A DNA stretch of 64,000 bases from Cellulosilyticum sp. (GTDB lineage: Bacteria > Bacillota > Clostridia > Lachnospirales > Cellulosilyticaceae), in contig SVDC01000001.1 of the NCBI GenBank assembly GCA_015058045.1, positions 62,001-126,000 of the forward strand. The letters are read 5' to 3'. Of this stretch, positions 331 through 23,321 are shown in pieces; the stretch's first letter is position 1; each line of letters begins with the position of its first letter. The notes below the pieces were generated by a model that was not told the DNA's origin, ran no database searches, and saw only the letters and a list, made by a program, of their open reading frames with translations. The position numbers were made by a program, and so were the translations under genes.

Positions 331-347
331 AAAGGGGGTGAGAATAG

Positions 348-2139: not shown

Positions 2140-2141
2140 GT

Positions 2142-3293: not shown

Positions 3294-3310
3294 TAGAAAG
3301 GGCGGCTTAG

Positions 3311-3758: not shown

Positions 3759-3772
3759 GGGGGTGTTTATGT

Positions 3773-4090: not shown

Positions 4091-4092
4091 AT

Positions 4093-4810: not shown

Positions 4811-4825
4811 GAGGAATTAAGACTT

Positions 4826-5422: not shown

Positions 5423-5450
5423 AAAAGGCTCTTTATAGGGGCCTTTTTAT
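5419..5450 (+). terminator. Terminator-like hairpin after the major tail gene
   Basis: An AAAAAGGC / GCCTTTTT inverted repeat follows the tail gene stop and ends in a T-rich stretch. It probably attenuates rather than ends transcription, since the tail chaperone gene begins 20 bases later with no visible promoter. Confidence 0.6.
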
Positions 5451-5470
5451 ATTGAAAGGAATGAGGTTAA

Positions 5471-5827
5471 ATGAAAAAACATAAAGTAACACCTTTAGAA
5501 AGCATGCAGCTAGAGTTTTTAGATAGAACACTTATATTTACTTTTGATATGCAAGCTATTACAAAAATGCAGAATGAGTTTGGAGCACTTGAAGATGTAG
5601 CAAGGAAATATACGGAATTTGAGTTAGCCGCTATGATGCTATGGGCCGGTGTTAAGCATGAAGATTTTACACTTGATGAAGCAAAAGTGATCATTACATC
5701 AAGTGCTGAGGTTCTTAGTGATACTTTAACATTAACAATGGATAGTATTATGCATCTGGCAGGAGAAAAGAATGAAAAAAAATTGCTAGAGGAAATAGAA
5801 AGAGCAGTAAAGAAAGTGAAAGTATAG
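5471..5827 (+). CDS. Tail assembly chaperone, short form (gpG-like)
   Basis: A 118-residue protein between the major tail and tape measure genes, the invariable site of tail assembly chaperones. These bind the tape measure protein while the tube assembles and are absent from the virion. The sequence is helical and charged (FDMQAITKMQNEFGALEDVARKY). Codons 101-104 read GAA-AAA-AAA after AAT, forming an eight-A run at 5775-5782 with the A AAA AAA slippery heptamer in the correct phase. A fraction of ribosomes probably shift to the -1 frame there and make the longer form described in the next entry. Confidence 0.87.
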   Translation: MKKHKVTPLESMQLEFLDRTLIFTFDMQAITKMQNEFGALEDVARKYTEFELAAMMLWAGVKHEDFTLDEAKVIITSSAEVLSDTLTLTMDSIMHLAGEKNEKKLLEEIERAVKKVKV

Positions 5828-6066
5828 ATATAGATTTTTTATTTTACGAATACTGCATTAGGTGTAATAGGCCAGAGTATGAATTTTGGACAAGTAGCCT
5901 TTCTAAAGTACTCTATGTAATAAATGAAAAAGCGAGTGAAGAAATTGAAGAAAGAAACTTTAATATAAGCTTATTTAGAGGGTTGGGTGCAAAGATACCT
6001 TTAATAAAACAACCAAAAAAGAAAGAAAAAGATGTTTATGTAGATAGCTTTGATGATATTTTGTAG
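5776..6066 (+). CDS. Tail assembly chaperone -1 frameshift extension (gpT-like)
   Basis: The -1 frame relative to the upstream chaperone has a TGA at 5773-5775 and is then open from 5776 to the TAG at 6064-6066, without a credible start codon or ribosome site. It opens exactly at the A AAA AAA heptamer (5776-5782). Shifting there gives a fusion of about 198 residues, ending in a Lys-rich KQPKKKEKDVYVDSFDD tail. This mirrors lambda gpG/gpGT and most siphophage chaperone pairs. The extension contains a Cys pair (YEYCIRCNRPEY). It ends 14 bases before the tape measure start. Expression by frameshift is inferred from sequence. Confidence 0.85.
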   Translation, partial: KKIARGNRKSSKESESIDIDFLFYEYCIRCNRPEYEFWTSSLSKVLYVINEKASEEIEERNFNISLFRGLGAKIPLIKQPKKKEKDVYVDSFDDIL

Positions 6067-6080
6067 AAAGGAGGTCAAGT

Positions 6081-8072: not shown

Positions 8073-8092
8073 AAAAGAGGTGAGTGAATAAT

Positions 8093-10351: not shown

Positions 10352-10353
10352 TA

Positions 10354-11430
10354 GTGATAATAGAAAAATTTCATTATTATTTATTAGATCAGTGCGACCA
10401 GCCAAAGGCAACAGGAATAGGTGAGACAAATGAGCTTTTCAATGTGATTAGTGGCGAACTCAATTATACGTCATTAGGAAGGTTAAAAAGCTCTCTTACA
10501 ATGAAGATTGTAGATAGTAAATACCTCAATATTGATTATCTTAATGATAGAATTAAGCTAGAAATCGAAATAGATGGAATTAAGTACAACAAGGGTATTT
10601 ATTTAATTAGTACTACTGGAAGTGAAACAAGAAAAGGAGTAAAAACTCGAACATTGACTTGCTATTCTAAGTTAAAAATATTAGATAAAGCGAAAGTACT
10701 TACACCTTATTATTTACCTGCAGGAGCTAATATTTATACAGCTATCGTTAATTTATTAGATACAAATCCATATAATATAGTTCAAACTGATAAAACACTT
10801 AATACATCATATACAGCTCAGAGGGGTACTGCAAAACTTGATATCATAAATGAACTATTCGATATACTTAACTACAATTCTTTAACAGTAGATGATTCAG
10901 GTGTATTTACTAGTACACCTTATGTTTTACCTGAAAATCGTGAAACAGAAATTTATTACATAGAAGGCGACCCGAAACGTACAGACGATAGTAGCGTATG
11001 CAGATTAATAAGTCCTGATGTAGAAGAAGATTTAGATGCTTTTGATATACCTAATATTTTCATGAAGCATACAAACGATGTTAATATAGACCCACCTATT
11101 GTAGCAGTATATCCACTTCAAGCAGATTTAAATAACCCAGTTACTATTGATGGAAGAGACCCTAACCCAAGCATTGAAGAAGTTAGTGATGTTGCTGATT
11201 ATGCTACTTTATATGCAAAATGTAAAAGAGATGCAGCAGACTCAAGAAGTATTTACAGCCATTTGCAAATAGAAACAGCTATAAACCCTAAACATGGCTA
11301 TTTAAATTGCATAGAGGTAAAAATGGGAGAAATAGATAATAAGTACACAGAAACGAGCTGGTCTATGAATCTTGTAGCAGGCGCATTAATGAAACACACG
11401 TTGAGGAGGGTGGTTAATTTAGATGAATAA
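10354..11430 (+). CDS. Tail/baseplate hub-like protein
   Basis: This 358-residue protein starts at GTG 10354 behind a GGAGGTGAG site, 2 bases after the previous stop. The region LTMKIVDSKYLNIDYLNDRIKLEIEIDG reads like the N-terminal beta domain of tail hub proteins (gpD / gp27 / ReqiPepy6 Gp37-like), followed by CYSKLKILDKAKVL, a TAQRGTAKLDIINELFDIL helix and a PENRETEIYYIEGDPKR segment. Position after the Dit-like gene fits the Tal/hub slot, but it lacks a visible peptidase or lysozyme domain. It overlaps the next gene by 8 bases. Confidence 0.7.
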   Translation: MIIEKFHYYLLDQCDQPKATGIGETNELFNVISGELNYTSLGRLKSSLTMKIVDSKYLNIDYLNDRIKLEIEIDGIKYNKGIYLISTTGSETRKGVKTRTLTCYSKLKILDKAKVLTPYYLPAGANIYTAIVNLLDTNPYNIVQTDKTLNTSYTAQRGTAKLDIINELFDILNYNSLTVDDSGVFTSTPYVLPENRETEIYYIEGDPKRTDDSSVCRLISPDVEEDLDAFDIPNIFMKHTNDVNIDPPIVAVYPLQADLNNPVTIDGRDPNPSIEEVSDVADYATLYAKCKRDAADSRSIYSHLQIETAINPKHGYLNCIEVKMGEIDNKYTETSWSMNLVAGALMKHTLRRVVNLDE

Positions 11431-11611
11431 TAAAGAAAACGGATTGTGGGCAAAAGTACTTACTGTTAACACTATAAACCAAACAATTACAGTACAATTC
11501 GATAGTGGAGACAGTACAGAAAAGCCTTATAAGTATCCGAAAACAGGATATACGCCACAAATAGGTGATAGAGCCTATTTTATTAATGATGTATGTATTG
11601 GAATCTATTAG
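11423..11611 (+). CDS. Small SH3/OB-like baseplate protein
   Basis: A 62-residue beta-rich protein (WAKVLTVNTINQTITVQFDSG then IGDRAYFINDVCIGIY). The pattern of a short barrel with a GDRAY turn is like the OB or SH3-like proteins that accompany hub proteins in phage tails. Coupled to the upstream hub gene by overlap. Function is inferred only from position and size. Confidence 0.65.
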   Translation: MNNKENGLWAKVLTVNTINQTITVQFDSGDSTEKPYKYPKTGYTPQIGDRAYFINDVCIGIY

Positions 11612-11626
11612 AAGGGACGTGATAAA

Positions 11627-12115
11627 ATGGTTTTTGAATTACCTTATAAAACACTTACGCCTATTTTGGGTAATGATGCTACATATGATGCTCACATTGA
11701 AACTACGCCAGACTTTATGAATGGTAAGTTTAAAGAATTACTAGAAAATGATAAGGCGACAGCAGAACAAATCAATGTTTTAAATAAAATAGAAGTAATT
11801 CCTATAACATATTTAAATGGGTTTAACAATATTTGGGGAGGAACTAGATGTGTTAGAGTCGGAAATGAAGTAAATGTATATTTAGAAATACTAAAGACTG
11901 GTGCAAGTGATTTAAGTTTACCTATAACGGTTTTTAAATATAAGCCAGTCACTGTAAAAAATATATTAGCTATTACCTATTTGGGTACATCAGATAATGC
12001 AAGTATAGTTTTGGATCTAGATGGTAGTGTTAAGATACATTCTTGGTCAACAGCTAATATAGGTGACTACACTATTGCTAGTTTTAAATATACTACGTTA
12101 GATGCATTTAGTTAG
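11627..12115 (+). CDS. Putative tail fibre / receptor-binding protein
   Basis: A 162-residue protein of unknown family. It starts with a short helical leader containing TTPDFMNGKFKELLENDKATAEQINVLNK, a pattern seen at the N-termini of Firmicute phage fibres that trimerise, and continues as a beta-rich domain (YLNGFNNIWGGTRCVRVGNEVNVYLEI). Its location between baseplate genes and the small C-terminal coiled-coil gene suits a host-binding role. This is inference; no catalytic motif is visible. Confidence 0.6.
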   Translation: MVFELPYKTLTPILGNDATYDAHIETTPDFMNGKFKELLENDKATAEQINVLNKIEVIPITYLNGFNNIWGGTRCVRVGNEVNVYLEILKTGASDLSLPITVFKYKPVTVKNILAITYLGTSDNASIVLDLDGSVKIHSWSTANIGDYTIASFKYTTLDAFS

Positions 12116-12127
12116 GAGGTGTTTTAA

Positions 12128-12454
12128 ATGGAAGGATTATTGCAGCAAGCAAACATACCAGAAGCGTGGTGGCCATATTGTACTATTAAAGATGGCGTTA
12201 TTTACACGCCAAACACAGAAGTGCTATATAAAAATGGTCTAGCTACAGAAGAACAATATAGATTTTGGCTTATCCAGCAAGAACAAATTGATATTTGTCC
12301 AGAGCCAACAGCAGAGGAACGTATCGTAAAGTTAGAAGAAGAAAAGGCTATTTTAGCAGAGAATGTATATGAATTAGCAAGTATTTTAGAATTTATGTTA
12401 GGAGGTACAGAAGATGGACAAAGCAGCACTACTACAGAAACTACAGCAGATTAA
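12128..12454 (+). CDS. Small tail-fibre-associated protein
   Basis: A 108-residue protein: an aromatic N-terminal half (IPEAWWPYCTIKDGVIYTP, EEQYRFWLIQQEQ) followed by a coiled coil (residues 65-92, KLEEEKAILAENVYELASI) and an acidic Thr-rich end. The Trp-Trp and YRFWL pattern recurs in short proteins after fibre genes of Clostridium phages. Function unknown. Its last 41 bases are overlapped by another small gene in a different frame. Confidence 0.65.
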   Translation: MEGLLQQANIPEAWWPYCTIKDGVIYTPNTEVLYKNGLATEEQYRFWLIQQEQIDICPEPTAEERIVKLEEEKAILAENVYELASILEFMLGGTEDGQSSTTTETTAD

Positions 12455-12542
12455 AGAAAGTACTAAGCAAATCATAGATAGGGGGAATAGCAATGATGGA
12501 GAAACTACTACAGATGCTACAACAGATAAAGAACAATCTTAG
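12414..12542 (+). CDS. XkdX-like small phage protein (42 aa)
   Basis: An ATG at 12414 follows a perfect AGGAGG with 8-base spacing and lies inside the end of the preceding gene. The peptide begins MDKAALLQKLQQIKESTKQI and ends with an acidic Thr-rich tail, very like the end of the preceding protein. Mini-proteins of 40-50 residues after fibre genes (XkdX class) are common in Firmicute phages. Function unknown. Confidence 0.55.
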   Translation: MDKAALLQKLQQIKESTKQIIDRGNSNDGETTTDATTDKEQS

Positions 12543-12558
12543 TAAACTATTTAAATAA
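12493..12558 (+). CDS. 21-residue amphipathic peptide overlapping the previous small gene
   Basis: ATG at 12493 behind AGGGGGAAT opens a 21-codon frame (MMEKLLQMLQQIKNNLSKLF plus K) almost wholly inside the 42-residue gene. It predicts a single amphipathic basic helix. Its KLLQMLQQIK core echoes the ALLQKLQQIK of the overlapping gene, suggesting local duplication. Real expression is uncertain, but the ribosome site is good. Confidence 0.4.
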   Translation: MMEKLLQMLQQIKNNLSKLFK

Positions 12559-12629
12559 AAATATAGGGCATGGAGAACAGCTTTAATAGGCTGTATTTTT
12601 TATGTCCTAATCTAAGGAAGGGGAAAGTG

Positions 12630-12863
12630 ATGCAAAATGCTTATTGGGTTATCAGTTTAGGAATAGCAATGCTTGGTTTTATTTTTGGACAGATGCAAGG
12701 ACAAAGAAAACGAGGGTATGAGGATGGTGTACTTAAGGCATCTCTAGACACGCTTTCTAACAAAGTTAATGAATTGTCTATTAAGATAGATGATATTAAC
12801 ATAGGTGAGTTGCGACAACGTGTAAAAGCTTTAGAAAAGTCGGTTTTTAAGGAGCGTGAGTAA
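12630..12863 (+). CDS. Small membrane-anchored coiled-coil protein of the lysis module
   Basis: From ATG 12630 (GTG 12627 is possible; site AAGGGGAAAG) this encodes 77 residues: one transmembrane helix at the N-terminus (YWVISLGIAMLGFIFG), a basic turn (QRKRGYED), then a coiled coil (LDTLSNKVNELSIKIDDI to the end). This is the reverse orientation of XhlA but the same ingredients. Likely a lysis accessory or antiholin-like protein. It abuts the next gene directly (stop TAA, ATG). Confidence 0.6.
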   Translation: MQNAYWVISLGIAMLGFIFGQMQGQRKRGYEDGVLKASLDTLSNKVNELSIKIDDINIGELRQRVKALEKSVFKERE

Positions 12864-13133
12864 ATGGCCCTAAAATGGGTAAGCAAACCTAAAAAGAAAA
12901 TAGAATACAGTAAAAGAGTAGTGGCTATAGTGCTTAGTTTTTGCATTATAGTCACTATTTTTGCAATGATTTTAATGTGGGTTACTAAGGATACTAGTCC
13001 ACTTGCTTACCTTATTCCAAGTGTATTTGCAGAGACTGGTATTGTTATAAGTTTTTATTTAGATAAAGCTAAGAAGGAAAATATTAGTAAGGGGGCAAGG
13101 GAAAATGAAAGTGAATTGGAAACAGAAACTTAG
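12864..13133 (+). CDS. Small two-helix membrane protein, lysis module
   Basis: 89 residues with a basic N-terminus (WVSKPKKKIEYSKR), two predicted transmembrane helices (VVAIVLSFCIIVTIFAMILM and LAYLIPSVFAETGIVISFYL) and a charged tail. Proteins of this pattern recur beside holins of Clostridium phages. It may be an alternative holin or antiholin. The last 29 bases overlap the holin gene. Confidence 0.6.
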   Translation: MALKWVSKPKKKIEYSKRVVAIVLSFCIIVTIFAMILMWVTKDTSPLAYLIPSVFAETGIVISFYLDKAKKENISKGARENESELETET

Positions 13134-13344
13134 TAGTAGAAAGTTTTGGGCAGCAGTAGTAGGGTTTGTTACACCTATTTTAATAGTCTTTAATGTACCT
13201 GATTTAACTATAGAGCAAGTTACAGCCATAATCACAAGTGGTGGTGCATTAATTGCTTATATGTTATCTGAGGGGTTTGTAGATGCTAAACGTGTGGAAG
13301 AAGGTGATAAAAATGCAGATACAACAAGCTCTATTAACGACTAA
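13105..13344 (+). CDS. Phage holin
   Basis: A 79-residue protein with the small-holin pattern: basic N-terminus (WKQKLSSRKFW), helix 1 (AAVVGFVTPILIVF), a turn, helix 2 (TAIITSGGALIAYMLSEGF), and a charged C-terminus (VDAKRVEEGDKN). The RKFW start and TSGGALIAYxxSEGFVDA segment are characteristic of Firmicute phage holins. It makes membrane lesions that release the amidase. Ribosome site GGGGG at 13091-13095. The amidase gene starts inside it. Confidence 0.85.
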   Translation: MKVNWKQKLSSRKFWAAVVGFVTPILIVFNVPDLTIEQVTAIITSGGALIAYMLSEGFVDAKRVEEGDKNADTTSSIND

Positions 13345-14056
13345 CCCATATTCAAGGCCAGGAACCAAAATAGGTAAGATAACTAATATTGTTATTCATT
13401 GGGTAGGTAATGCAAGCTCTACAGCTATTGCAAATCGTAACTATTTTGAAAGCCTTAAAGATAAAAAGACATACGCTAGCAGTCATTATATTGTAGGGCT
13501 TCAAGGTGAGATTATTCAATGTGTGCCTGAAAATGAGGTTGCTTATCATGCTAACCAGGCTAATAGCTACTCAATAGGTATTGAAAATTGCCATCCTGAC
13601 TGGAATGGAGAGTTTAACCAAATGACATACAATAGTCTTATTGAGTTGTGTGTAGATATTTGCAAAAGATATAATCTAGATCCAGAAGTAGCACTTATCA
13701 GACACTATGATGTAACTAAAAAGCAATGTCCTTTATATTATGTGCAGCATTTAGATGCGTGGAAGAAATTAAAGCTAGATGTAAAAGTTGCTATGAACCC
13801 ATCCAAAGAAGATACTGAGCTGTATGAAGCGTGTCGCAAGATTATCTTATCAGGCATTAATCTTAATATTAATCAGTGGAAACGCTTAGACCTAATCAAA
13901 TTAAACAATGTACAAGCTTTATTAACTAAGCTTGGTGGATTAGATAAACTTGTATCCTTACAAGTAATAGGTCAAAAAGAATTATGGCTTACAGGGAAAT
14001 ATAACGCAAATCATGTTAGATCACTTTTAATTAAATACAGCAAGACATTAGGGTAG
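13313..14056 (+). CDS. N-acetylmuramoyl-L-alanine amidase, phage endolysin
   Basis: 247 residues from ATG 13313, which has AAGGTGAT upstream (the ATG at 13283 has no site). The Amidase_2 (zinc, T7-lysozyme-like) domain spans about residues 20-160: NIVIHWVGN gives the first zinc His, the HYIVGLQGEIIQCVPENEVAYHA core follows in two pieces, SIGIENCHPDW carries the catalytic Glu region, and LIRHYDVTKKQCP holds the second His and Lys, with Cys as the third ligand. It cleaves the stem peptide from MurNAc. The C-terminal 80 residues, helical with a GLDKLVSLQVIGQKELW segment, probably bind the wall. The gene overlaps the holin and is followed by a terminator. Confidence 0.92.
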   Translation: MQIQQALLTTNPYSRPGTKIGKITNIVIHWVGNASSTAIANRNYFESLKDKKTYASSHYIVGLQGEIIQCVPENEVAYHANQANSYSIGIENCHPDWNGEFNQMTYNSLIELCVDICKRYNLDPEVALIRHYDVTKKQCPLYYVQHLDAWKKLKLDVKVAMNPSKEDTELYEACRKIILSGINLNINQWKRLDLIKLNNVQALLTKLGGLDKLVSLQVIGQKELWLTGKYNANHVRSLLIKYSKTLG

Positions 14057-14086
14057 GGCTTAGGCTCTACCTTTTATTTTTTTGCC
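14050..14086 (+). terminator. Terminator of the late phage operon
   Basis: GTAGGGC-TTAG-GCTCTAC hairpin immediately after the amidase stop, followed by CTTTTATTTTTTT. It marks the end of the virion and lysis operon; everything to the right is cargo with its own signals. Confidence 0.8.
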
Positions 14087-14156
14087 TAAAAGACGGATTT
14101 GTTTAATATAAATAAAGTAATAGTAGAAATATTTAGAATAAAATAGTAAAATAAAA

Positions 14157-14196
14157 AGAACCTGTAAGATTTGCCGTCTATTAAACAGGTTCTTTG
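14157..14196. terminator. Strong hairpin upstream of the HipA-like gene
   Basis: AAGAACCTGT and ACAGGTTCTT form a 10-base-pair stem with an 18-base loop. It ends in T-rich sequence and could insulate the cargo from read-through or end a minus-strand transcript. Confidence 0.6.
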
Positions 14197-14227
14197 CTAT
14201 AATATGTTATTGTACCTCTATTATAGC
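14196..14227 (+). promoter_or_regulatory. Palindromic promoter/operator candidate for the HipA-DUF3037 operon
   Basis: GCTATAATA and TATTATAGC form a 9-base inverted repeat spaced by 14 bases and contain TATAAT-like hexamers on both strands, 27 bases ahead of the kinase start. This fits an autoregulated promoter, as is usual for HipA-type modules. Assignment is inference from symmetry. Confidence 0.45.
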
Positions 14228-14253
14228 ATAAAACACGTAATGGGGGTATATAT

Positions 14254-15219
14254 ATGCGAGAGATAGAAGTAGAAACATTTTTAGATTCTATGGAAATGGG
14301 AGTTAGTAGACCAGTATTAATATTAGGTGATGATCAAGACGAATATATATTAAAGAATCAAAAAGTTACTGATAATGGTAAAACAGTTATTTTTGATTGT
14401 ATGTTTGTAAATGAATTATTGGCATATCAAATTGGTTGCTATCTTGATGTTCCAATGCCAGAAGCTGTAATTGCATTTGTTGATGAACTGCTAGTAGAGA
14501 ATGATCCTAAAGTGAGGTTTGCATATAAGTTTGAAAAAGGTAAATATTTTGCTACAGAAAGATTAAAATATGTAGAAAATAACTTAGAATCAAATTACCT
14601 AGAACTAGCAAGTATGAGAAAACCATATAGAAAAAATACATGGAAAGCCTTTTTTGAAGGGATAGCAAATAAAAGTGACATATCTAAGATACTTGCATTT
14701 GATATTTTTATAGCAAATTTCGACAGGTATAGAAATCAAGGTAATATACTTGTTAATAGAGAAGAACCAAGAATGATGTATGCAATAGACCACGGGCATG
14801 CTTTTTGGGGTCCAGTGTGGAATATGGATAAAATAAATTGTTTGAATTTAGTAAATGCCACATCTATGTATATAAACCAATATTCTATGGAAATACTTAA
14901 ATACATTCCTGGAGTAATGTTTAATGCACTTCAAGAATATGTGGATTTAACAGATATAAACAACAATCCATTTAATGAAATTGTACAAAAAATTACTTCT
15001 ATAGATGAAAGTATGATAGAATTATGGATGAATAACATACCAAATGAATGGTATATTAACAAAGATTTGCAAATAGCCTATTACACAAATTTCTTGCTAA
15101 AACATAAGCATGTAGTAAAGGATGTTATACAAAATCTTGTTGTAAGAGAAGTGTTTGTAAACTATAAGGGAGGAGTTTTGAAATGGAACAATCAAAATCA
15201 AAAGTCTCATACAGTATAA
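14254..15219 (+). CDS. HipA-like kinase domain protein
   Basis: A 321-residue protein with kinase landmarks of the HipA-like family (HipA_2 type): GDDQDEYILKNQK near residue 25 with a candidate ATP-binding Lys, AFDIFIANFDRYRNQGNIL near residues 150-168 with the catalytic Asp and Asn, and YAIDHGHAFWG near 178, equivalent to the DFG metal-binding Asp. It lacks the HipA N-terminal subdomain and no HipB-type HTH gene precedes it. Its 3' end overlaps a DUF3037-type gene by 37 bases, a pairing I recall in many bacteria. Probable role: protein or tRNA-synthetase kinase in a toxin or defence module carried by the prophage. Substrate unknown. Confidence 0.75.
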   Translation: MREIEVETFLDSMEMGVSRPVLILGDDQDEYILKNQKVTDNGKTVIFDCMFVNELLAYQIGCYLDVPMPEAVIAFVDELLVENDPKVRFAYKFEKGKYFATERLKYVENNLESNYLELASMRKPYRKNTWKAFFEGIANKSDISKILAFDIFIANFDRYRNQGNILVNREEPRMMYAIDHGHAFWGPVWNMDKINCLNLVNATSMYINQYSMEILKYIPGVMFNALQEYVDLTDINNNPFNEIVQKITSIDESMIELWMNNIPNEWYINKDLQIAYYTNFLLKHKHVVKDVIQNLVVREVFVNYKGGVLKWNNQNQKSHTV

Positions 15220-16058
15220 TAAGATACTCACCAGATGCTTTAAGGGGTGAGATTATTAATATTGGTTTGATTCTTTATAACCACTCAGATAATAGTACAA
15301 TAAGCTTCTTGCTAGATGAAAAATCACCTAAATTAAAAGCAGTATTAGATAACTCGGTTGAATATGATATATACAAAACAGACAAGGAAAGCATAGAGTA
15401 CTACCTAAAGAAGACAAAAGATGATATAAGTGGTGTAGTAGGGGAGGTATATATTGCATCATGTTATGATGAAAAGTTTATAGACATACTATATAAATAT
15501 TTTGAAGGTAAAAGATTAAGATTGTCTCAGCCAGCAATAGCATACACAAAAAGTCCTAAGAAAATATTTGATACAATACTAGCTAGATATATTGGAGAGA
15601 CAAATGTTCCCTTTGGAAAAACAAATGTTGCAACAGTTAAAAAATATATGAAACACATAATTGAATCTAATGAAAAATTAAAGAGTCGTATTATTACTGA
15701 TAAAATAATTAAGCCTATAGATGATCTAGAAGATATTCAAATAAAAGTAGATTTTACATTTAAAAATGGTAGATGGAACTATATGCAAGCCATACCTAAT
15801 GTTTCTCAACAAAGTAAAAATATTGAGTGGTTTTCTAAAATAGAATTAATGTTACAGAACGATGAAATTAAGAAATCACATATACACTTATTATATAAGA
15901 AGACTGATATTATCACTGATATTGCTACTTATAACTTATTGAAATATTTAAATAAGAAGTATGAAAATGTGGATATACTCGATATAGATAAAAAACATGA
16001 TATTGATAATTTGTGTAAGTTTATTGAAAATGAAGCACAAATACTAGATGTGGTATAA
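15183..16058 (+). CDS. DUF3037-type partner of the HipA-like kinase
   Basis: A 291-residue protein beginning YSIIRYSPDALRGEIINIGL near residue 10, which is the recognisable DUF3037 signature (Tyr-rich strand, then a R-G-E-x-x-N-x-G turn). The rest is alpha-beta with charged helices and no catalytic motif I can name. The start ATG at 15183 has GGGAGGAG with good spacing and lies inside the kinase gene, so the two are translationally coupled. DUF3037 next to HipA-like kinases suggests a two-gene module in which one partner controls or targets the other; which is the antitoxin cannot be read from sequence. Confidence 0.7.
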   Translation: MEQSKSKVSYSIIRYSPDALRGEIINIGLILYNHSDNSTISFLLDEKSPKLKAVLDNSVEYDIYKTDKESIEYYLKKTKDDISGVVGEVYIASCYDEKFIDILYKYFEGKRLRLSQPAIAYTKSPKKIFDTILARYIGETNVPFGKTNVATVKKYMKHIIESNEKLKSRIITDKIIKPIDDLEDIQIKVDFTFKNGRWNYMQAIPNVSQQSKNIEWFSKIELMLQNDEIKKSHIHLLYKKTDIITDIATYNLLKYLNKKYENVDILDIDKKHDIDNLCKFIENEAQILDVV

Positions 16059-16114
16059 AATAGTAGTTTGTAACATGATACAATAGTTGTTAGTATGGGA
16101 TGGAGAGAAAATGA

Positions 16115-17074
16115 ATGGAAAATAAAATAAATCCAGTAAAAGAGTATAATACATTATGTAATAATCAATCATTAACTGAGAGATTTAAATTGTGGGAGAA
16201 TTATAGAGCAGCTAATGCAAAATGGATTGAAGAAACTTGTGGGAAAGTGCCACAAAATAGTTGCGTTGCAGTTTTAGGCGCAGGAAACTGTGATGATATT
16301 GACTTAGAAAAATTATCAAATATATACTCTGAAATATATTTATTTGATATTGATAGTAAAGCTTTGGACCGAGGAACGCAAAAATATAATATTAATCAAA
16401 ACTGCAAGATTATAAAGGTAGGCGATATAAACTTTATAAATTTCGCACAAATAAATTTCTTTGAAGATATGATGGATATAGTAGGAAGCACTGACACATC
16501 TGATAGTACAAAATTTAAGCGTCTTAAGAAGTACTTTATCAAAAAAGGAAGTGAAATAAAACCTTGCTCAGATATGAGTGTATATTATAAAAAATTTGAC
16601 ACAGTTATTTCTTCAGCTGTCTATACTCAGATTGGAAGAGTAGTATTATCTTCATGTAAGTTGGATTCATATATTAAGAATGAAAAAATATTAAAAGATT
16701 TGATAAAAGAGTATATGTATATAGAAAACAAGATTTATGATGCATATAACAATTTACTCCTTGATTTGGTGAAAGATGGTGGAAACGTTATATTGTTCAC
16801 TGACTATGCTGAGTTTACAAGGGATAATCCTAACTCTACTACTGGGTTAGCCAATGTACACAAAGCTATGTGTAGTGGAGATTATTCCAAGGTAGAGGAA
16901 AGCTGTTTTGGATTTAAAATAGGAAATGCTACACAGGGAATATCTAATTTATTAAATAAAGTTAATGGTTATGTCAATATACCAACTACTTTAAGGATAA
17001 CCCATTTTCCATGGGGATTTTCTACAGATAAAGTTTACATTGTTAAATATATATACATAAAGAAAGTTTTTTAG
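16115..17074 (+). CDS. Methyltransferase-like Rossmann-fold protein
   Basis: A 319-residue cargo gene. Residues 48-80 contain CVAVLGAGNCDDIDLEKL followed by IYLFDIDSKALDRG, the pattern of class I SAM-dependent methyltransferase motif I (GxGxxxD variant) and the acidic residue after beta-2. A later VSAVYTQIGR and the GGNVILFTDY strand fit beta-4 and beta-5 positions. There is no NPPY/DPPY motif, so a DNA N-methyltransferase is unlikely. A 16073-16090 TTGTAACATGATACAA inverted repeat may be its promoter or operator. Substrate unknown; it may act on protein, RNA or a small molecule. It has its own gap to the HipA pair. Confidence 0.55.
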   Translation: MENKINPVKEYNTLCNNQSLTERFKLWENYRAANAKWIEETCGKVPQNSCVAVLGAGNCDDIDLEKLSNIYSEIYLFDIDSKALDRGTQKYNINQNCKIIKVGDINFINFAQINFFEDMMDIVGSTDTSDSTKFKRLKKYFIKKGSEIKPCSDMSVYYKKFDTVISSAVYTQIGRVVLSSCKLDSYIKNEKILKDLIKEYMYIENKIYDAYNNLLLDLVKDGGNVILFTDYAEFTRDNPNSTTGLANVHKAMCSGDYSKVEESCFGFKIGNATQGISNLLNKVNGYVNIPTTLRITHFPWGFSTDKVYIVKYIYIKKVF

Positions 17075-17201
17075 TAAGAAGATACTGTTAACATTACAGT
17101 TTATGTGACTCATATATGAATAAAAACATAGTTTTAGGCTGGAGCAATCCAGTCTATTTTGCTATTTAAAATTAACATTTGAATAAGATTAAAAATTATG
17201 T

Positions 17202-17234
17202 GACCATGCTCTAGATAAGGAGCGTGGTCTTTTA
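17202..17234 (+). terminator. Terminator after the methyltransferase-like gene
   Basis: GACCATGCTC / GAGCGTGGTC, a 10-base-pair stem with an 8-base loop followed by TTTTA. It lies in the 309-base gap between 17,074 and 17,384, where I otherwise see only a weak small frame. Confidence 0.7.
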
Positions 17235-17236
17235 AT

Positions 17237-17344
17237 ATGCGTATATTTAGGCTTATAAAGATAAAGTGGGAAATTAAACATAGAAATATGACTCAGAAAA
17301 ATATAGATAAGTTAATTGTTAGGTTGAATAAATTATTAGAATAG
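17237..17344 (+). CDS. Possible 35-residue basic peptide
   Basis: ATG at 17237 opens 35 codons (MRIFRLIKIKWEIKHRNMTQ and onward, ending LNKLLE), strongly basic and helical. Its only ribosome-site candidate, GGAG, lies 14 bases upstream inside the preceding hairpin. It may be chance; included because the gap holds nothing else that looks coding. Confidence 0.25.
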   Translation: MRIFRLIKIKWEIKHRNMTQKNIDKLIVRLNKLLE

Positions 17345-17383
17345 TCTAAAATATAAGACAAAAGATAAAAAGGTGGGGATATT

Positions 17384-17902
17384 GTGGAAGCTGTTATTTT
17401 ATTACTATTACTTATTGGAATAGCAATATTTTTAATTTGTGCATTAGTTAAAGGGGCTAAGACAGTTAGTAACCCAAATAATTCAGAACGCTTAATCATA
17501 TGTAAACATGAGGTGGGGTTGCCGATACCTGCAAAATCATTATGCAAAATTACATTTAAAGATTGTGATATTACAATTACAAGTGGTAATCATAAATTCA
17601 ACCTAAGCCACGATAAAATTACAGATATTTCTTCTACTACAGACAAAGAAATACAGGAGCATTATGTTAGTAGTGTAGGTGGAGCAGTAGGTGGAGCTAT
17701 ATTATTTGGGCCATTAGGAGCAATAGTTGGTGGTAGATCAAAGAAGAAGAAATCAAGCAAACTTATTAATTACTTTACTATTTCGTATAAAGATGAAGAT
17801 GAGCTAAAATATATTAGTTTTGAATATACTCCATCTTTTAATTCTATAAGTGTTATCAAGGAATTTAATAAAACTAAAGGTAGTGAGGTAGTTAACTTAT
17901 AA
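17384..17902 (+). CDS. Membrane protein with glycine-zipper segment
   Basis: 172 residues from GTG 17384 behind AGGTGGGG. A very hydrophobic N-terminal helix (ILLLLLIGIAIFLICALV) anchors it; a beta-rich domain follows; residues about 103-123 form GGAVGGAILFGPLGAIVGG, a glycine-zipper type membrane-inserting hairpin, then a KKKKSSK basic patch and a final beta segment. Similar proteins are frequent in phage accessory regions and beside superinfection genes. Function unknown; membrane-level exclusion is one possibility. Confidence 0.6.
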   Translation: MEAVILLLLLIGIAIFLICALVKGAKTVSNPNNSERLIICKHEVGLPIPAKSLCKITFKDCDITITSGNHKFNLSHDKITDISSTTDKEIQEHYVSSVGGAVGGAILFGPLGAIVGGRSKKKKSSKLINYFTISYKDEDELKYISFEYTPSFNSISVIKEFNKTKGSEVVNL

Positions 17903-17924
17903 AGTATTTTACTCGATAAAATAA

Positions 17925-17953
17925 ACCGGACAAATTATGTCCGGTCTTTTTTT
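17925..17953. terminator. Bidirectional terminator
   Basis: ACCGGAC-AAATTAT-GTCCGGT hairpin with T-rich runs on the plus side, between the convergent membrane-protein gene and the HTH gene. The stop codon of the minus-strand HTH gene lies within it. Confidence 0.8.
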
Positions 17954-18141
17954 ATTGTGCAAATATCAGTTAGTTGACAATCAAAGTGTAAGCAGATTCG
18001 TTCTAGTATCTCTAAACTAACATATTCATTTTTATTAATTTTAGCTATTACAGTGGGATGAATATGTAGTTCATCTTTTAGGAATTTAAACTTTAGTCCA
18101 TTTTTAGCTAGTAATATTCTTAAACCAGTATAATCAACCAT
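17935..18141 (-). CDS. Small XRE-family HTH regulator
   Basis: A 68-residue protein comprising little more than an HTH domain: LRILLAKNGLKFKFLKDELH (helices 1-2), HPTVIAKINKNEYVSLEILE (recognition helix and wing) and RICLHFDCQLTDICT, the last being the signature of the HTH_26 (Cro/C1-type, YozG-like) group. Start ATG has AGGGAGG seven bases upstream. It is divergent from the ParM-like gene, with an inverted repeat and direct repeats between, so it probably controls both itself and the partition cassette. Confidence 0.85.
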   Translation of the reverse strand: MVDYTGLRILLAKNGLKFKFLKDELHIHPTVIAKINKNEYVSLEILERICLHFDCQLTDICTIKKDRT

Positions 18142-18193
18142 GCTTAACCTCCCTATATAGAATTATATTAAAAGTTCTTAAAAAAGCAAAAAT

Positions 18194-18211
18194 AATTCGC
18201 ATATACGAATT
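18194..18211. promoter_or_regulatory. Inverted repeat, candidate operator for the HTH regulator
   Basis: AATTCG-CATATA-CGAATT, a perfect 6+6 inverted repeat about 50 bases upstream of the HTH start and 90 upstream of the ParM-like gene. Symmetry and size suit a dimeric Cro-type protein. Confidence 0.5.
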
Positions 18212-18231
18212 AAAAGTTACATATAGATGAA

Positions 18232-18293
18232 TTATATAAATCTTATATAAGTTTTCTAAAAAACTTTTTAAGGTTATATAAATCTTATATAAG
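18232..18293. repeat. Direct repeats, candidate parC centromere
   Basis: The 20-mer TTATATAAATCTTATATAAG occurs at 18232-18251 and again at 18274-18293, exactly 42 bases (four helical turns) apart, directly before the ParM-like gene. Each copy contains two TTATATAA palindromes. Between them lies an AAAAAACTTTTT tract. Iterons on the same face of DNA just upstream of parM are how plasmid R1-type parC sites are built. Confidence 0.65.
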
Positions 18294-18302
18294 GGTGATG
18301 TC

Positions 18303-19172
18303 ATGGAAGTAATAGCAGTTAATAGTGGTAATTACTCTACCAAAGCAAAGAGTAAATCTCGAGAGATAGTCTTTAGGACAAAAATACAAAAGAATATAGA
18401 TGCTACAAAGTATATATTTGCTAATGGTGTTAAGTATGAGGTAGGAGAAGGAGAAATAGATATAGACAATTTAAAGCATAATAGTATAGCTCATACGCTT
18501 TGCACTTTATATGCACTATCAATCTTGCATACTGAATATGATATATGCCTCGTAACTTGCCTACCAATTAACCAATTTAAAAATAAAAGCATTAGAGAGA
18601 AGTATGGGGAATCATTAAAAGGCAACTATGAAGTAGAAACGGAAAAAGGAAAAGACAGATTTAATATTAAAGAAGTAATAGTCTATATGGAAGGTGCAGC
18701 GGGTATATTGACTCATAGTGAAACATTTAAGAATAACATTGTAAGCGTTATCGATATAGGGGGCTATAACATAAATGCTTTGCAATTTGATAAATTACAT
18801 CTAGTAACAGGAAGTGAAGATGATTTTGATTTGGGAGTATACAGTATAAATGCAAAGATAGCGCATGATCTAAATAAAACTTTTAATTATCACTTAAAAG
18901 AATATGAATTAAATCACATTCTAAAGCATCCAACAGAAGAGCAAAATGAAATAATCACAAAGCATTACGTAAGCTTCATAAATCGTCTTAGGAATGAATT
19001 AAAGCAGAGAGGTTATAACTTATCACTAAATCAATTTCTTTTTACTGGTGGTGGTTCCATAGACGTAGAAATACAACTAAAAAGCGAATTTACTAATTGT
19101 TATATAGGTAGTGTGTTTGATACAGCTAGAGGATTGTATGAGGTAGGGGTGAGAAAATGCAATTCTGTATAA
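18303..19172 (+). CDS. ParM/StbA-like actin ATPase
   Basis: A 289-residue actin-like protein of plasmid-segregation type. Visible ATPase motifs are VNSGNYSTKAKS near residue 5 (phosphate 1 loop), SVIDIGGYNINALQF near residue 150 (phosphate 2) and FTGGGS near residue 240 (adenosine loop). The first motif has Asn where ParM and actin usually have Asp, a possible change in metal handling. It would polymerise into filaments that push apart DNA copies bound through an adaptor at parC. The following small gene overlaps by 16 bases. A partition actin implies an extrachromosomal, low-copy stage of the element. Confidence 0.8.
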   Translation: MEVIAVNSGNYSTKAKSKSREIVFRTKIQKNIDATKYIFANGVKYEVGEGEIDIDNLKHNSIAHTLCTLYALSILHTEYDICLVTCLPINQFKNKSIREKYGESLKGNYEVETEKGKDRFNIKEVIVYMEGAAGILTHSETFKNNIVSVIDIGGYNINALQFDKLHLVTGSEDDFDLGVYSINAKIAHDLNKTFNYHLKEYELNHILKHPTEEQNEIITKHYVSFINRLRNELKQRGYNLSLNQFLFTGGGSIDVEIQLKSEFTNCYIGSVFDTARGLYEVGVRKCNSV

Positions 19173-19387
19173 GTATTACGGATCCAGTAGCTTTGGAGAA
19201 ATGGTTAGATATACCAAAACAAAAAAGAAGTAGGTACGTGGAAGATATGCTTTTAAGAGAAGGGGCACAAAAAAGCAACATAGAGGAGTTAAAGTCTATG
19301 TTGCAGGAAATAGTAAGGAATTCATCTACTAATACGTTTAATGTAAATTTAGATAGTTCTGTAATAGATGAAATACTAAATTTGTAA
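19157..19387 (+). CDS. Candidate ParR-like adaptor
   Basis: 76 residues, start inside the ParM-like gene with AGGTAGGGGTG upstream. The N-terminal part (FCISITDPVALEKWLDIPKQ then KRSRYVEDMLLREGA) reads as a ribbon-helix-helix domain, and the C-terminal half is a helix with a short hydrophobic end (VIDEILNL) that could contact the filament. Size, order and overlap match parMR operons. No family hit can be asserted without a search. Confidence 0.6.
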   Translation: MQFCISITDPVALEKWLDIPKQKRSRYVEDMLLREGAQKSNIEELKSMLQEIVRNSSTNTFNVNLDSSVIDEILNL

Positions 19388-19405
19388 TCCAATATAGATA
19401 ATAGA

Positions 19406-19430
19406 CAAAAAAATAAGCCTAAATAGGCTT
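19406..19430 (-). terminator. Minus-strand terminator of the small membrane gene
   Basis: On the minus strand AAGCCTA-TT-TAGGCTT is followed by ATTTTTTTG. The stop codon of the minus-strand gene lies inside the hairpin. Confidence 0.75.
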
Positions 19431-19616
19431 TGATTGATGGGTATACTTACCCACGTTGCAGGTGTGTGCTTGCTCCGGTTCAGTGGCTTCCTCGCTCACT
19501 ACACTCCTAGCGTATGATTTTGATTTTTTAAATATGCGTGTTTTGCTTGTACAATGCGATATTTTATAAAAAAGTATAAGCAGCATAAAGAACAGCATAA
19601 CAAAAAACGTAACCAC
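19419..19616 (-). CDS. Small single-helix membrane protein, toxin-like
   Basis: 65 residues from GTG 19616: a hydrophobic helix (FFVMLFFMLLILFYK) followed by a polar basic tail (TRIFKKSKSYARS) and a SEEATEPEQAHTCNVGKY end encoded by DNA visibly richer in GC than its surroundings. A compact minus-strand transcript with a terminator overlapping the stop resembles type I toxin genes of Firmicute prophages. The best ribosome site (AGGAG at about 19,645) serves a 22-codon frame at 19564-19632 better than this GTG, so the two may be coupled or one may regulate the other. Toxicity is speculation. Confidence 0.5.
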   Translation of the reverse strand: MVTFFVMLFFMLLILFYKISHCTSKTRIFKKSKSYARSVVSEEATEPEQAHTCNVGKYTHQSKPI

Positions 19617-19632
19617 AAGTAAAAGTAAACAT
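19564..19632 (-). CDS. 22-residue leader peptide overlapping the toxin-like gene
   Basis: On the minus strand, AGGAG-CTGATATA-ATG gives ideal spacing for a 22-codon aromatic and hydrophobic peptide (MFTFTCGYVFCYAVLYAAYT and two more residues). It overlaps the start of the 65-residue gene in another frame. It could be the leader that couples translation of the downstream frame. Confidence 0.35.
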   Translation of the reverse strand: MFTFTCGYVFCYAVLYAAYTFL

Positions 19633-19687
19633 TATATCAGCTCCTAGTTTTAATTTTATTTTAGTATTACCTAAAGGGGGATTTATT

Positions 19688-20098
19688 ATGCAGATATGTT
19701 ACATTCCACCAAAAGAAAAATATTCAAGAAATAATTTTTTAAAGTCACAAATGAAAAGAGAGTTGGCTAAGTTTAAAGATGAAAAGGTTCAACTAAGAAT
19801 AGCAGCTTGCATGATCACGATTGCAGTATCACAAGTTAATCTCTATGCAAAAGACTTAAACTTGGAAAAATGGAAAGGCAATTTAGATAAAAAAGGTACT
19901 CAGATTTTAGACATTATACAGACAGTTGGTTATTGGATTGCAATTATAGCAGCAGCAGTTGATATTATTAAAAATTTCAAGAAACAAGACATAGCAGGGC
20001 TGTTTGCAGTAGCTTTTAAGTATGCAGCATTATTTGGTTTGTTAAATGGCTTACCTTGGTTTTTCGAGTTGGTTGGCGATTTATTTAATATGGAATAG
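19688..20098 (+). CDS. Small membrane protein with MQI-YIPP N-terminus
   Basis: 136 residues, ATG 19688 with AAAGGGGG upstream. It begins MQICYIPPKEKYSRNNFLKS. The C-terminal half has two hydrophobic helices (TVGYWIAIIAAAVDII and LFAVAFKYAALFGLL) separated by a basic KNFKKQD loop, an arrangement similar to VirB2/TrbC-like small T4SS proteins. It is not a recognised family to me. The next gene shares the first dozen residues in pattern. The cassette continues into a VirB4/HerA-like ATPase, so a role in a membrane DNA-transfer or packaging complex is the working inference. Confidence 0.6.
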   Translation: MQICYIPPKEKYSRNNFLKSQMKRELAKFKDEKVQLRIAACMITIAVSQVNLYAKDLNLEKWKGNLDKKGTQILDIIQTVGYWIAIIAAAVDIIKNFKKQDIAGLFAVAFKYAALFGLLNGLPWFFELVGDLFNME

Positions 20099-20108
20099 GG
20101 GGTTACTT

Positions 20109-20387
20109 ATGCAAATATCTTATATACCACCAGTTACAACTTCATCTAATAATTTTTTGCAGAGCACAATCGAAAAAGCAATAAATAATGCGATAGTTAA
20201 TCCTTTTAAATTATGGGTTTATGAAATTACATCAAAAACAATGATGCTTGCAGAATGGGGGTTAATATTTGGATGTGCAGTAGGTGTTATATTATGGATT
20301 TGTGGTGTTGAGAAGGGAAAGAAAACAACTATTGTATGTGCATTAATATTTGTAGGATTGCAAATTGTAAAGGTGGTGTTCATGTGA
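20109..20387 (+). CDS. Second small membrane protein with MQI-YIPP N-terminus
   Basis: 92 residues from ATG 20109 (AGGGGGTTACTT upstream), starting MQISYIPPVTTSSNNFLQS, clearly related to the start of the previous protein although the remainder differs. Two membrane helices follow (LAEWGLIFGCAVGVILWICG and TIVCALIFVGLQIVKVVF) with a basic EKGKKT loop between. Its stop TGA overlaps the start of the ATPase gene. The shared N-terminal tag suggests a common sorting or docking signal. Confidence 0.6.
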   Translation: MQISYIPPVTTSSNNFLQSTIEKAINNAIVNPFKLWVYEITSKTMMLAEWGLIFGCAVGVILWICGVEKGKKTTIVCALIFVGLQIVKVVFM

Positions 20388-22663
20388 TGAAATCAATGCC
20401 ATTAAGCAAGTATTATGAAGTTATCAATCCTACTTATGAATGTCTTAAAATCATTCCACATTCTAGTACTAGAAACTATAACAGTAGTGCATTGGCTAAA
20501 ATGGTAGCCAATATGTACATTAACATTAAGCAGTCTATAAAGTGGCATGAACGTAAGTTTGTAGTGAAGTCACCTTTAAAATGCAGTTACATGATAGACA
20601 TACGAAAAACAGATGTTAGCTTTTACTTTGTGGTTCCTAGCCAGTACATAACACTGGCTAAGGAGCGTATCATAAATACCTGGAATAAATGCAAGGTTGA
20701 ATTAATAGATATGCCAACCATACCAAAAGGATTAGTGTACTCATTAGGCTACGAAAACAAAGACCAGTTAAGTCTAGATGTAGATAAAAAGAGCAACTAC
20801 CCACTCAATAGTATTTTGAGTACGATAGACATTATGGAAGATGATGATCGTGTGCTTATTATGTATAATCTTATGCCATGCTCACAGTATGGATGGAAGT
20901 CTTCATGTGATAGAATTACTACTAAATTTATTAAAGGGGAACCGATTAAAAGGGAGTTAACAGGTTTCTCAGTAATATTTAAAGTTTTATTTGCAGTAGC
21001 AGATTTCGCAGACAAAGTTATGGATAGCATTTTTAAAGGTGAAGATAATGTATTTAAAGATTTTGTAAGTGCATTTAAAGAGAACATAAATACTATTAGC
21101 AGTGATACTAAAAGCAAGCGCAATGATGTTATAGTTAAGACTCAGATAGCAGTCATTAGCCACAGTATGAATGAGAATAGGGCAATGGCTAATATTAAAA
21201 ACATATGTGAAGGATTTGAAGAAATCAAGGGAGATAACAGACTTACTTATGAGCAGTGCTTTAGACCTAAAATAAATGCACTAGAGTACAAACTTAAAGG
21301 AATACCTACTAATAAATTTAGCACTAATGAATGTCAGAACTTATTGCAGTTGCCTGGGAGAGAACTATTAGAAGAACATCATATCAGCCATAATAATGTA
21401 ATTGAAACAGATGTACCTAAAGACTTACAGCAAGGGATAATGTGCATTGGCGAAAGTAAGTGTAAAGATACAATCACTAAAGCTTATATCAGTACAGATA
21501 AAAGTTATCAATATCTTACCTGGTGCTTAATAGGTCCTACTAGAGCAGGTAAAACAACATTAATCTCTAATACATGTTATGATAGCAGTAAGGAAAGAGA
21601 ATGTAATGTGGTTTTAGATTGGTGTGGAAAGTGTGAGTTAAGCGAAGATTTAAAGGCTTCACTTAAAGGCAAAGTTGATATTTTGGAAATTAATTGTGAC
21701 GATTTTAATAAGTTGCAAGGCTTAGGCTACAATGAACTATATACTACTGAAAATGATGAATTTAAGCACTATAAGAGCGCCAAACAACAAGGTATGCAGT
21801 TACTAACATTAATTAATAGCTTGCAAGGTGGTGATGAGGACTTAAGGGCAAGAATGGAGAGATACTTAGGTGCTGCTAGTTTGATTGTTGCTATCAATAA
21901 CGGACCTGTTAAAGATGTATTTGAGATATTACAGGATCACGAACTAAGAGAAAAGTATATTGGCATGGTACCAATTAATCAACAAACTAATCTTGCTAAA
22001 TACATAAGATACTTGAATGAGCTAAATGAGGTTAAAAACGGAGTAGTAATAGGTACTAAGCTTAATGCGGTTCAAGGGATATTAAATAGGGTTAATAAGT
22101 TAGAGCAAAATCCATACATGGAAATGATGTTGCAGAAGGATTGCAGTAATAACATTAACCTAGTTAATGAAATGCAAAAAGCTAGGTTGATACTAATTAA
22201 GATGCCAGAAGGTATGTTTGCTACAGAAGAAGAGAAAGACGTTTATGCTACTTATTGGCTTACTAAGATTTGGGGAGCGTTACAGCGTAGGAAGATGGAT
22301 ATATCAGAAGATGAAGCAGTTAAGGTTAATATTTACTTTGATGAACTCTACCAAGTAGAGAATTGCCAAGAGTTTCTTAGAAGTAAATTATCACAGATAG
22401 CTAAGTTTTGGGCAAAACCTATTATCAGTTGCCATTATCTAGGTCAAATAGGTGGGATAAGAAACGAGTTAAAGAGTGCTAATGCTAGTTATACAATAAT
22501 CTCAGGAAGTGATAAGGATAACTATAAAGAACTTAAAAGCGAATTGTACCCATATACAGAAGAAGATTTACTCAATCTTAAGAGGTGGCACGCAATCAAT
22601 CTTATTAAATGCAATGATGGATATGGCAAGTTTATAACTTCACTACCTAAACCTATAAAATAA
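20387..22663 (+). CDS. VirB4/HerA/TraD-like P-loop ATPase
   Basis: About 758 residues from ATG 20387; GTG 20384 is equally possible with AAAGGTGG upstream. Walker A is GPTRAGKTTLIS near residue 380 and Walker B is VNIYFDELYQ near 655, in the arrangement of the HerA/FtsK superfamily used in conjugation and DNA pumping. A long N-terminal region (residues 1-330) has no motif I know, and a hydrophobic patch FKVLFAVADFADK near 205 might touch membrane. An aromatic ISCHYLGQIGGIRNEL segment near 690 resembles the sensor region of VirB4-like proteins. With two small membrane partners and ParM/ParR upstream it looks plasmid- or ICE-derived. No relaxase is visible. Confidence 0.7.
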   Translation: MKSMPLSKYYEVINPTYECLKIIPHSSTRNYNSSALAKMVANMYINIKQSIKWHERKFVVKSPLKCSYMIDIRKTDVSFYFVVPSQYITLAKERIINTWNKCKVELIDMPTIPKGLVYSLGYENKDQLSLDVDKKSNYPLNSILSTIDIMEDDDRVLIMYNLMPCSQYGWKSSCDRITTKFIKGEPIKRELTGFSVIFKVLFAVADFADKVMDSIFKGEDNVFKDFVSAFKENINTISSDTKSKRNDVIVKTQIAVISHSMNENRAMANIKNICEGFEEIKGDNRLTYEQCFRPKINALEYKLKGIPTNKFSTNECQNLLQLPGRELLEEHHISHNNVIETDVPKDLQQGIMCIGESKCKDTITKAYISTDKSYQYLTWCLIGPTRAGKTTLISNTCYDSSKERECNVVLDWCGKCELSEDLKASLKGKVDILEINCDDFNKLQGLGYNELYTTENDEFKHYKSAKQQGMQLLTLINSLQGGDEDLRARMERYLGAASLIVAINNGPVKDVFEILQDHELREKYIGMVPINQQTNLAKYIRYLNELNEVKNGVVIGTKLNAVQGILNRVNKLEQNPYMEMMLQKDCSNNINLVNEMQKARLILIKMPEGMFATEEEKDVYATYWLTKIWGALQRRKMDISEDEAVKVNIYFDELYQVENCQEFLRSKLSQIAKFWAKPIISCHYLGQIGGIRNELKSANASYTIISGSDKDNYKELKSELYPYTEEDLLNLKRWHAINLIKCNDGYGKFITSLPKPIK

Positions 22664-22725
22664 GCTATATGTTACTCAGATAGATATGCAGCGTATGAAA
22701 GTGATTTAGAGATTAAATAAAAAAT

Positions 22726-22766
22726 AAGCGTGTAAGCTAATGAAATCAATAGCTACACGCTTTATT
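22726..22766 (+). terminator. Terminator of the cargo region, next to the right attachment site
   Basis: AGCGTGTAAGCTA and TAGCTACACGCT form a 12-base-pair stem with one bulge and a 10-base loop, followed by TTATTCTTA. It lies about 25 bases before the prophage border and would shield the cotJC remnant from phage transcription. Confidence 0.75.
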
Positions 22767-22787
22767 CTTACTTAATATCACACATTA

Positions 22788-22811
22788 CTATTTGGTGGTC
22801 CAGATGGAGAA
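22788..22811. other. Inferred right attachment site (attR) within cotJC
   Basis: In-frame reading leftwards from cotJC gives residues that match CotJC back to FGGPDGE (22791 onward); before that the frame reads YHTLL, unlike CotJC, and stops at 22773. The crossover therefore lies at or within TTTGGTGGTCCAGATGG. The exact core needs the left border, which is outside the window. Confidence 0.7.
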
Positions 22812-23321
22812 CTTGCTGCTTCACAACGCTATTTATCACAACGTTATTCTATGTATAACCGCAAGGTGGCTGGTGTACTAACTGATATTGGAACAGAAGA
22901 AATGGCACATATGGAGATGATTTGTGCTATCGTCCATCAATTAACGAGAGATTTAACGCCTGAACAAATTGAAAAGAGTGGATTTGCACCTTATTATATT
23001 GACCACACAACAGGATTATATCCAGTAGCAGCTGCTGGGACACCATTTACAGCAACTTATTTCCAATCTAAAGGAGATGCTATTACTGATTTACATGAAG
23101 ATATGGCAGCCGAACAAAAAGCAAGAACAACTTATGATAATCTACTAAGACTTATTAAGGATCCAGATGTATGTGACCCACTTAGATTTTTAAGAGAAAG
23201 AGAACTAGTTCATTATCAACGTTTTGGTGAAAGTTTACGTATGGTTCAAGATGATTTAGATTCTAGGAATTTCTACGCATTTAACCCAGAATTTGATATG
23301 AGTAAATTAAAAAATAAATAA
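22791..23321 (+). pseudogene. cotJC: cotJC remnant, 5' end removed by prophage insertion
   Basis: The frame encodes FGGPDGELAASQRYLSQRY and 157 further residues of CotJC, a manganese-catalase-family protein of the spore coat. Retained ligand positions are Glu of PDGEL, Glu and His of TEEMAH, Glu of MAAEQKA and His of RELVHYQRF. Missing are roughly the first 30 residues, promoter and ribosome site. An internal ATG at 22851 could be mistaken for a start but would omit the first Mn ligand and has no ribosome site. The reading frame itself is undamaged, so clean excision of the prophage should restore the gene. cotJA and cotJB would be expected left of the element. Confidence 0.88.

Follow-up and report, generated by a model that had tools for sequence, protein, structure and literature searches.

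A prophage within cotJC in the genome of Cellulosilyticum sp. (G000) raises the question of whether a spore-coat gene divided in this way has been given up to a resident phage, or whether it is put together again when the host sporulates. The window, by which we mean the whole stretch of 64,000 nucleotides analyzed (contig C92, positions 62001-126000), holds the 3' part of the gene and the right-hand part of the phage. We favor reassembly, with a probability of roughly 0.72: a temperate siphophage with a large serine recombinase (LSR) resides in cotJC, and the gene would be rebuilt by developmental excision in the mother cell.

The proposed mechanism runs as follows. The spore-coat operon cotJABC ends with cotJC, and the LSR would have integrated the phage into this last gene, using an attB site that lies in its codons 28-31; during sporulation, the phage would supply a small recombination directionality factor (RDF), made from a mother-cell promoter (sigma-E and SpoIIID); helped by the RDF, the LSR would recombine attL with attR in the mother cell, the Mn-catalase from the rebuilt cotJC would enter the coat, and the intact lysogen would pass to the forespore. 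Several LSR lineages, each mostly with one att site in cotJC, would have placed phages or reduced elements there across Lachnospirales and other clostridia, and the arrangement would have arisen many times. The main rival, unlikely though to be taken seriously, is ordinary lysogeny: the target would be a conserved gene that the host can spare, SOS induction or sporadic curing would be the only events to restore it, developmental control would play no part, and LSR phages would have settled on cotJC for the conservation of its metal-ligand codons.

The divided gene and its prophage

A search with PF05067 returns two matches in the G000 genome and no others: one to the 3' part of cotJC (C92:84788-85258, window 22788-23258), in an ORF that runs to 23321 without stops, and one to a 5' piece (C92:44583-44681), both on the + strand of the contig. 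The original prediction, of a prophage inside cotJC with the 3' part left in frame, is thus confirmed by both ends, by the abutting LSR, by a shared core, and by a stop-free join; the 5' fragment that it sought to the left of the window, next to an integrase, is present, preceded by cotJA (L006:4062-4319) and cotJB (L006:4321-4581). After the first 30 codons of cotJC follows an LSR of 488 residues, transcribed towards cotJA, cotJB and cotJC. Neither a second cotJC, whose presence elsewhere the prediction had set against itself, nor an empty site was found in the G000 assembly; sigK is whole and present.

The break falls just before the GEL motif (the PDB relatives are manganese catalases), in keeping with its predicted place near residue 30, ahead of the first predicted Mn ligand, and is refined to codons 28-31; the end of homology, given as FGGPDGE, is corrected, the 5' part supplying QFGG and the 3' part GPDGEL. 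The two ATTTGGTGG cores lie 40,124 bp apart, and joining the parts at them in silico gives a stop-free frame of 204 codons. Its identity to the intact G005 gene is 85%; in that genome, as in G004, cotJC runs uninterrupted across the insertion point. The absence of other damage, already noted from the window, holds for both parts, which are intact and in frame, with a dN/dS against G005 of about 0.08 on each side of the break. Judged from these joined sequences, exact removal of the prophage would restore cotJC, whose role in sporulation we take from homology and general knowledge.

Table 1. Features of the divided cotJC and its prophage; plain coordinates refer to the window.
Feature	Position	Strand	Evidence or remark
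3' part of cotJC, residues 28-204	22791..23321	+	normal stop reached; internal stops none; 84% identity to intact G005 gene
attR core ATTTGGTGG	22790..22798	+	longest in-register identity of the two junctions
attL core ATTTGGTGG	L006:4666-4674 = C92:44666-44674		17.3 kb left of window; in register with attR
Prophage, right-hand 22.8 kb	1..22789		remainder outside window
Prophage, left 17.3 kb	L006:4675-20000 and L007:1-2000		includes LSR
LSR, 488 aa	L006:4700-6166	-	PF00239, PF07508, PF13408; phrog_95; about 25 bp from attL core
Candidate RDF	L006:7942-8100		ATA start codon; family A leave-one-out E 0.7
Portal protein	348..1577	+	PF04860 E 1.7e-56; phrog_12 E 6e-69
Head maturation protease	1552..2139	+	phrog_80 E 6e-29
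Major head protein	2142..3293	+	phrog_10 E 1.7e-81
Major tail protein	4826..5422	+	phrog_88 E 1e-21
Tail tape-measure protein	6081..8072	+	phrog_1533 E 3e-56
Endolysin (amidase)	13283..14056	+	phrog_9611 E 3e-37
775-aa protein, P-loop-like GPTRAGKT, last gene of element	20336..22663	+	phrog_5156 (function unknown) E 4.8e-89
Hairpin AAGCGTGTA...TACACGCTT, possible terminator	22726..22763	+	just inside right end; by eye

The insert, of 40,124 bp, is a complete-looking siphovirus prophage (Table 1), in which the genes for terminase, portal, protease, capsid, tail tube, tape measure, and endolysin are all open, and which also carries repressor, antirepressor, and replication genes; its LSR adjoins ImmA-like and repressor genes, the layout of an ordinary lysogen. 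So complete a gene set, in which neither repressor and antirepressor nor lysis genes are lacking, counts in favor of the main rival. An LSR 100% identical to that of the window phage is found on a 37.7-kb IMG/VR contig (L132), which is trimmed at the LSR stop; searches with the joined attP and the phage-side junctions found no excised form (attB or attP) in the G000 assembly or in IMG/VR. The terminator predicted at the phage edge has a counterpart in the hairpin listed, which is visible by eye and was not called by the terminator scan (loop limit 8).

The prophage further holds a HipA-like kinase and DUF3037 gene pair as possible cargo (window 14254-16058), a tyrosine recombinase (L006:17835-18797; PF00589, E 1.1e-13; phrog_1) and, at its right end (window 18303-22663), genes for an actin-like protein (PF17989), two small membrane-like proteins, and the large ATPase-like protein of phrog_5156.

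Recurrent division of cotJC in clostridia

The locus is not an isolated case. CotJC was found in 236 of the 392 genomes of the order, and the gene is divided in roughly 90 of these, a count made by hand from match boundaries, some of them at contig ends. The breaks cluster at residues ~30 (at which the prediction had proposed to look in related genomes), ~64, and ~135, with a rare fourth position at ~100 and up to three breaks per gene, and most have an LSR beside them. Within the same genus, the cotJC of G001 is cut at codon ~63, its parts 53 kb apart, with a different LSR of 525 residues; in other families of the class the same break points recur, with an LSR near the break in 16 of 20 stretches checked. 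Among 65 IMG/VR viral contigs with a CotJC match, 64 hold only a part of the gene, nearly always starting at a known break point; in 46 contigs, the flank that was retrieved includes an LSR. In G199 the gene lies in four pieces, with at least three LSRs. Species with intact and with divided genes are intermixed within genera, a mixture expected of ordinary lysogeny; that cotJC has been cut two or three times and is yet undamaged argues against it.

Several of these loci have features of their own. The G001 element has three subtilisin-like protease genes, recognized by eye, at its left end (L019:5325-11227). Genes in three or four pieces occur in G225, G199, G106, G371, G174, G208, and G146 (L092-L104, L097), with LSR clades that differ between breaks; G371 has an intact copy besides its divided one. 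Parts of the 3' end starting at residue ~98 occur in G097, G233 (L105-L107), and G186; G097 and G186 have several separate ones, possibly exchangeable C-terminal ends. LSR ORFs of about 270-400 residues, lacking the C-terminal half and ending at or near the break, were seen in L032, L034, L038, L061, and L107, and truncated LSRs of about 300 residues in G309, G350, and G100; the 1.6-kb element of G350 encodes a Spo0A DNA-binding domain that stands alone (PF08769, E 4.7e-31; L034:1987-2322) beside a cut LSR of 305 residues. In Niameybacter massiliensis (L016:9995-12000, L134), an LSR 49% identical to that of the window phage adjoins an apparent 3' end of spoVFA, and a spoVFB-like frame breaks off after VVLAANATMI and passes into phage-like DNA, so that both dipicolinate synthase genes look interrupted.

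When 34 divided genes were rejoined in silico, those in three and four pieces included, none contained an internal stop. Not counted as support for precise joining are G159, G207, and G109, for which the automatic junction was poor, and G379, which like G109 is not a clean two-piece split (residues 68-131 not found in G379, 68-85 in G109). Six genes that aligned badly were excluded from the rate comparison; for the other 28, pN/pS against the nearest relative is 0.02-0.32, with a median of about 0.11, as low as in intact genes; in within-genus pairs that share a division at site 1 it is 0.04-0.14, the LSRs being 71-81% identical in two genera. Where alignable, the divided genes thus look as constrained as intact ones, which suggests purifying selection, although the halves could also have stayed conserved through loss of an element and its later re-insertion, as intact and divided species are mixed within genera. 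It is very improbable that cotJC has died in this lineage, leaving fragments in decay: loss of the gene appears to be tolerated, as many genomes of the family have no CotJC match, and C. difficile has Mn catalases that are redundant (PMC11222575), but the low dN/dS on both sides of the G000 break and the lack of a stop in any rejoined gene speak against decay.

When insertion sites are mapped on a phylogeny of 45 LSRs, 5 changes are required, compared to 20.8 with shuffled labels; in these data, LSR clade is thus a predictor of the site in cotJC. Every att site falls within or next to invariant codons of CotJC, a position that may allow a wide host range; it also fits ordinary lysogeny, conserved genes often being targets of LSRs (PMC10083194). 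It is scarcely credible that the tyrosine recombinase rather than the LSR governs integration and excision, although it is a phage-integrase family protein: 13 kb separate the tyrosine recombinase from the nearer end of the prophage, the LSR sits directly at the junction, as LSRs do at most other breaks in cotJC, and the insertion site is tracked by LSR phylogeny.

Partner ORFs and a putative promoter box

Some elements in cotJC are reduced to 2-5 kb and carry no phage genes, and these have kept the LSR and a small ORF, which ordinary lysogeny would not lead one to expect. In profile searches the families of these partner ORFs, candidate RDFs, follow the LSR clade: family A goes with the LSRs of site 1, family B with one clade of site 2, and family D with the other. 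Leave-one-out E-values are strong for most members of A, B, and D; that of the G000 member is weak (Table 1).

Many ORFs of families A and B, and similar ORFs of other elements, are preceded by the box ATAGGACAA-N11-(C/A)ATAnnnT. Its exact spacing is found in 17 of 19 co-occurrences, with 0.15 expected, the box having been derived by reading the same sequences in which it was counted; in 16 of the 17, a ribosome-binding site and an ORF of 45-81 residues follow. The exact box is rare genome-wide, and family D ORFs lack it; scoring generic sigma-E and sigma-K consensus sequences upstream of the RDF candidates gave no excess. The G000 phage has the box with one mismatch (ATAGTACAA-N11-CATAAGTT, L006:7898), the CATA standing 24 nt before the ATA start of the candidate ORF. 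Similar boxes were seen elsewhere: in G121 before ORFs of 54 and 59 residues (L231:9484-11733, L227), one beside another LSR and one in a prophage-like region. In the Niameybacter massiliensis element, the partner ORF of 54 residues has the same box as those at cotJC (L016:7844).

In its spacing, ATA-N17-CATAnnnT, the box resembles sigma-E promoters, and its inner RRACAR is similar to the SpoIIID site of B. subtilis, so that the whole looks like a sigma-E promoter with a SpoIIID site. The sigma-E promoter of C. difficile spoIIID reads ATA-N16-CATATATA (PMC3789822), and CD1234 of the same organism is a proven RDF that depends on sigma-E and SpoIIID (PMC5025042). A fixed, mother-cell-like box before partner ORFs of unrelated families counts against ordinary lysogeny and is consistent with developmental control.

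Mother-cell excision of the window prophage we infer from this comparative pattern: independent, recurrent insertions at few codons, purifying selection, minimal elements of LSR and partner, and a promoter of sigma-E/SpoIIID type together point to a skin-like element. Such an architecture had been predicted from the window, and what stands directly is an LSR prophage in a mother-cell coat gene, restoration in frame, and no spare copy, with excision in the mother cell as the conditional part.

Proposed place among developmental elements

The closest parallels are two. The skin-Cd element of C. difficile (LSR CD1231, RDF CD1234) is likewise a prophage-like element with an LSR in a mother-cell gene, and its small RDF is under sigma-E and SpoIIID (PMC5025042), a control that the promoter-like box of the cotJC partner ORFs would match; its target, however, is sigma-K (sigK), whereas here it is a structural coat enzyme, the window element is a complete phage, and different LSR clades have inserted at different att sites of the one gene. 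SPbeta, in spsM of B. subtilis, is like the window element a whole prophage of active type, located in an envelope gene that the mother cell expresses late, with an LSR (SprA) and precise in-frame restoration (PMC4191935), obtained here in silico; to its small RDF (SprB) corresponds only a weak candidate in the window phage; target gene and host order differ, and excision is shown for SPbeta and predicted for the window prophage. The elements vfbin (spoVFB), vrin (spoVR), gin (gerE), and yin (yabG) are also serine-recombinase elements in mother-cell sporulation genes, known from one or a few cases per gene; genes with several elements, or a frequency such as that in cotJC, are unreported for them (PMC4191935, PMC5595907, PMC10747680). 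In C. difficile R20291, the phi027 prophage adjoins the Mn-catalase gene CDR20291_1465, a CotJC homolog; the available part of that source calls the gene adjacent and describes no divided or restored gene (PMC11222575), whereas cotJC here is divided. The open-access literature searched, which leaves subscription journals largely outside, contained no report of an interrupted cotJC or of cotJC as a target of such elements. By its features, the window element would belong with the skin, vfbin, SPbeta, gin, and yin type, with cotJC as a target unnamed in that literature.

More broadly, and with somewhat less assurance than for the window phage itself, we lean towards regarding cotJC as a widespread locus of developmental recombination in clostridia, at which several independent LSR lineages would use separate att sites at metal-ligand codons; one type of promoter, dependent on sigma-E and SpoIIID, would control all the RDFs, and in some species up to three mother-cell excisions would be needed to assemble the gene. 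Only a few genes, and few cases, of sporulation-controlled excision had been known before. In the large gut order surveyed, roughly one in three genomes with CotJC has the gene cut, by several recombinase families and at few fixed codons, and gene callers may score such a divided gene as missing. Directionality factors are difficult to recognize from sequence, and the survey offers a predicted promoter signature by which to search for them, besides many sets of LSR, att site, and candidate RDF. It also makes testable the idea that phages use the mother-cell program of their host, so that lysogens would still make complete spores.
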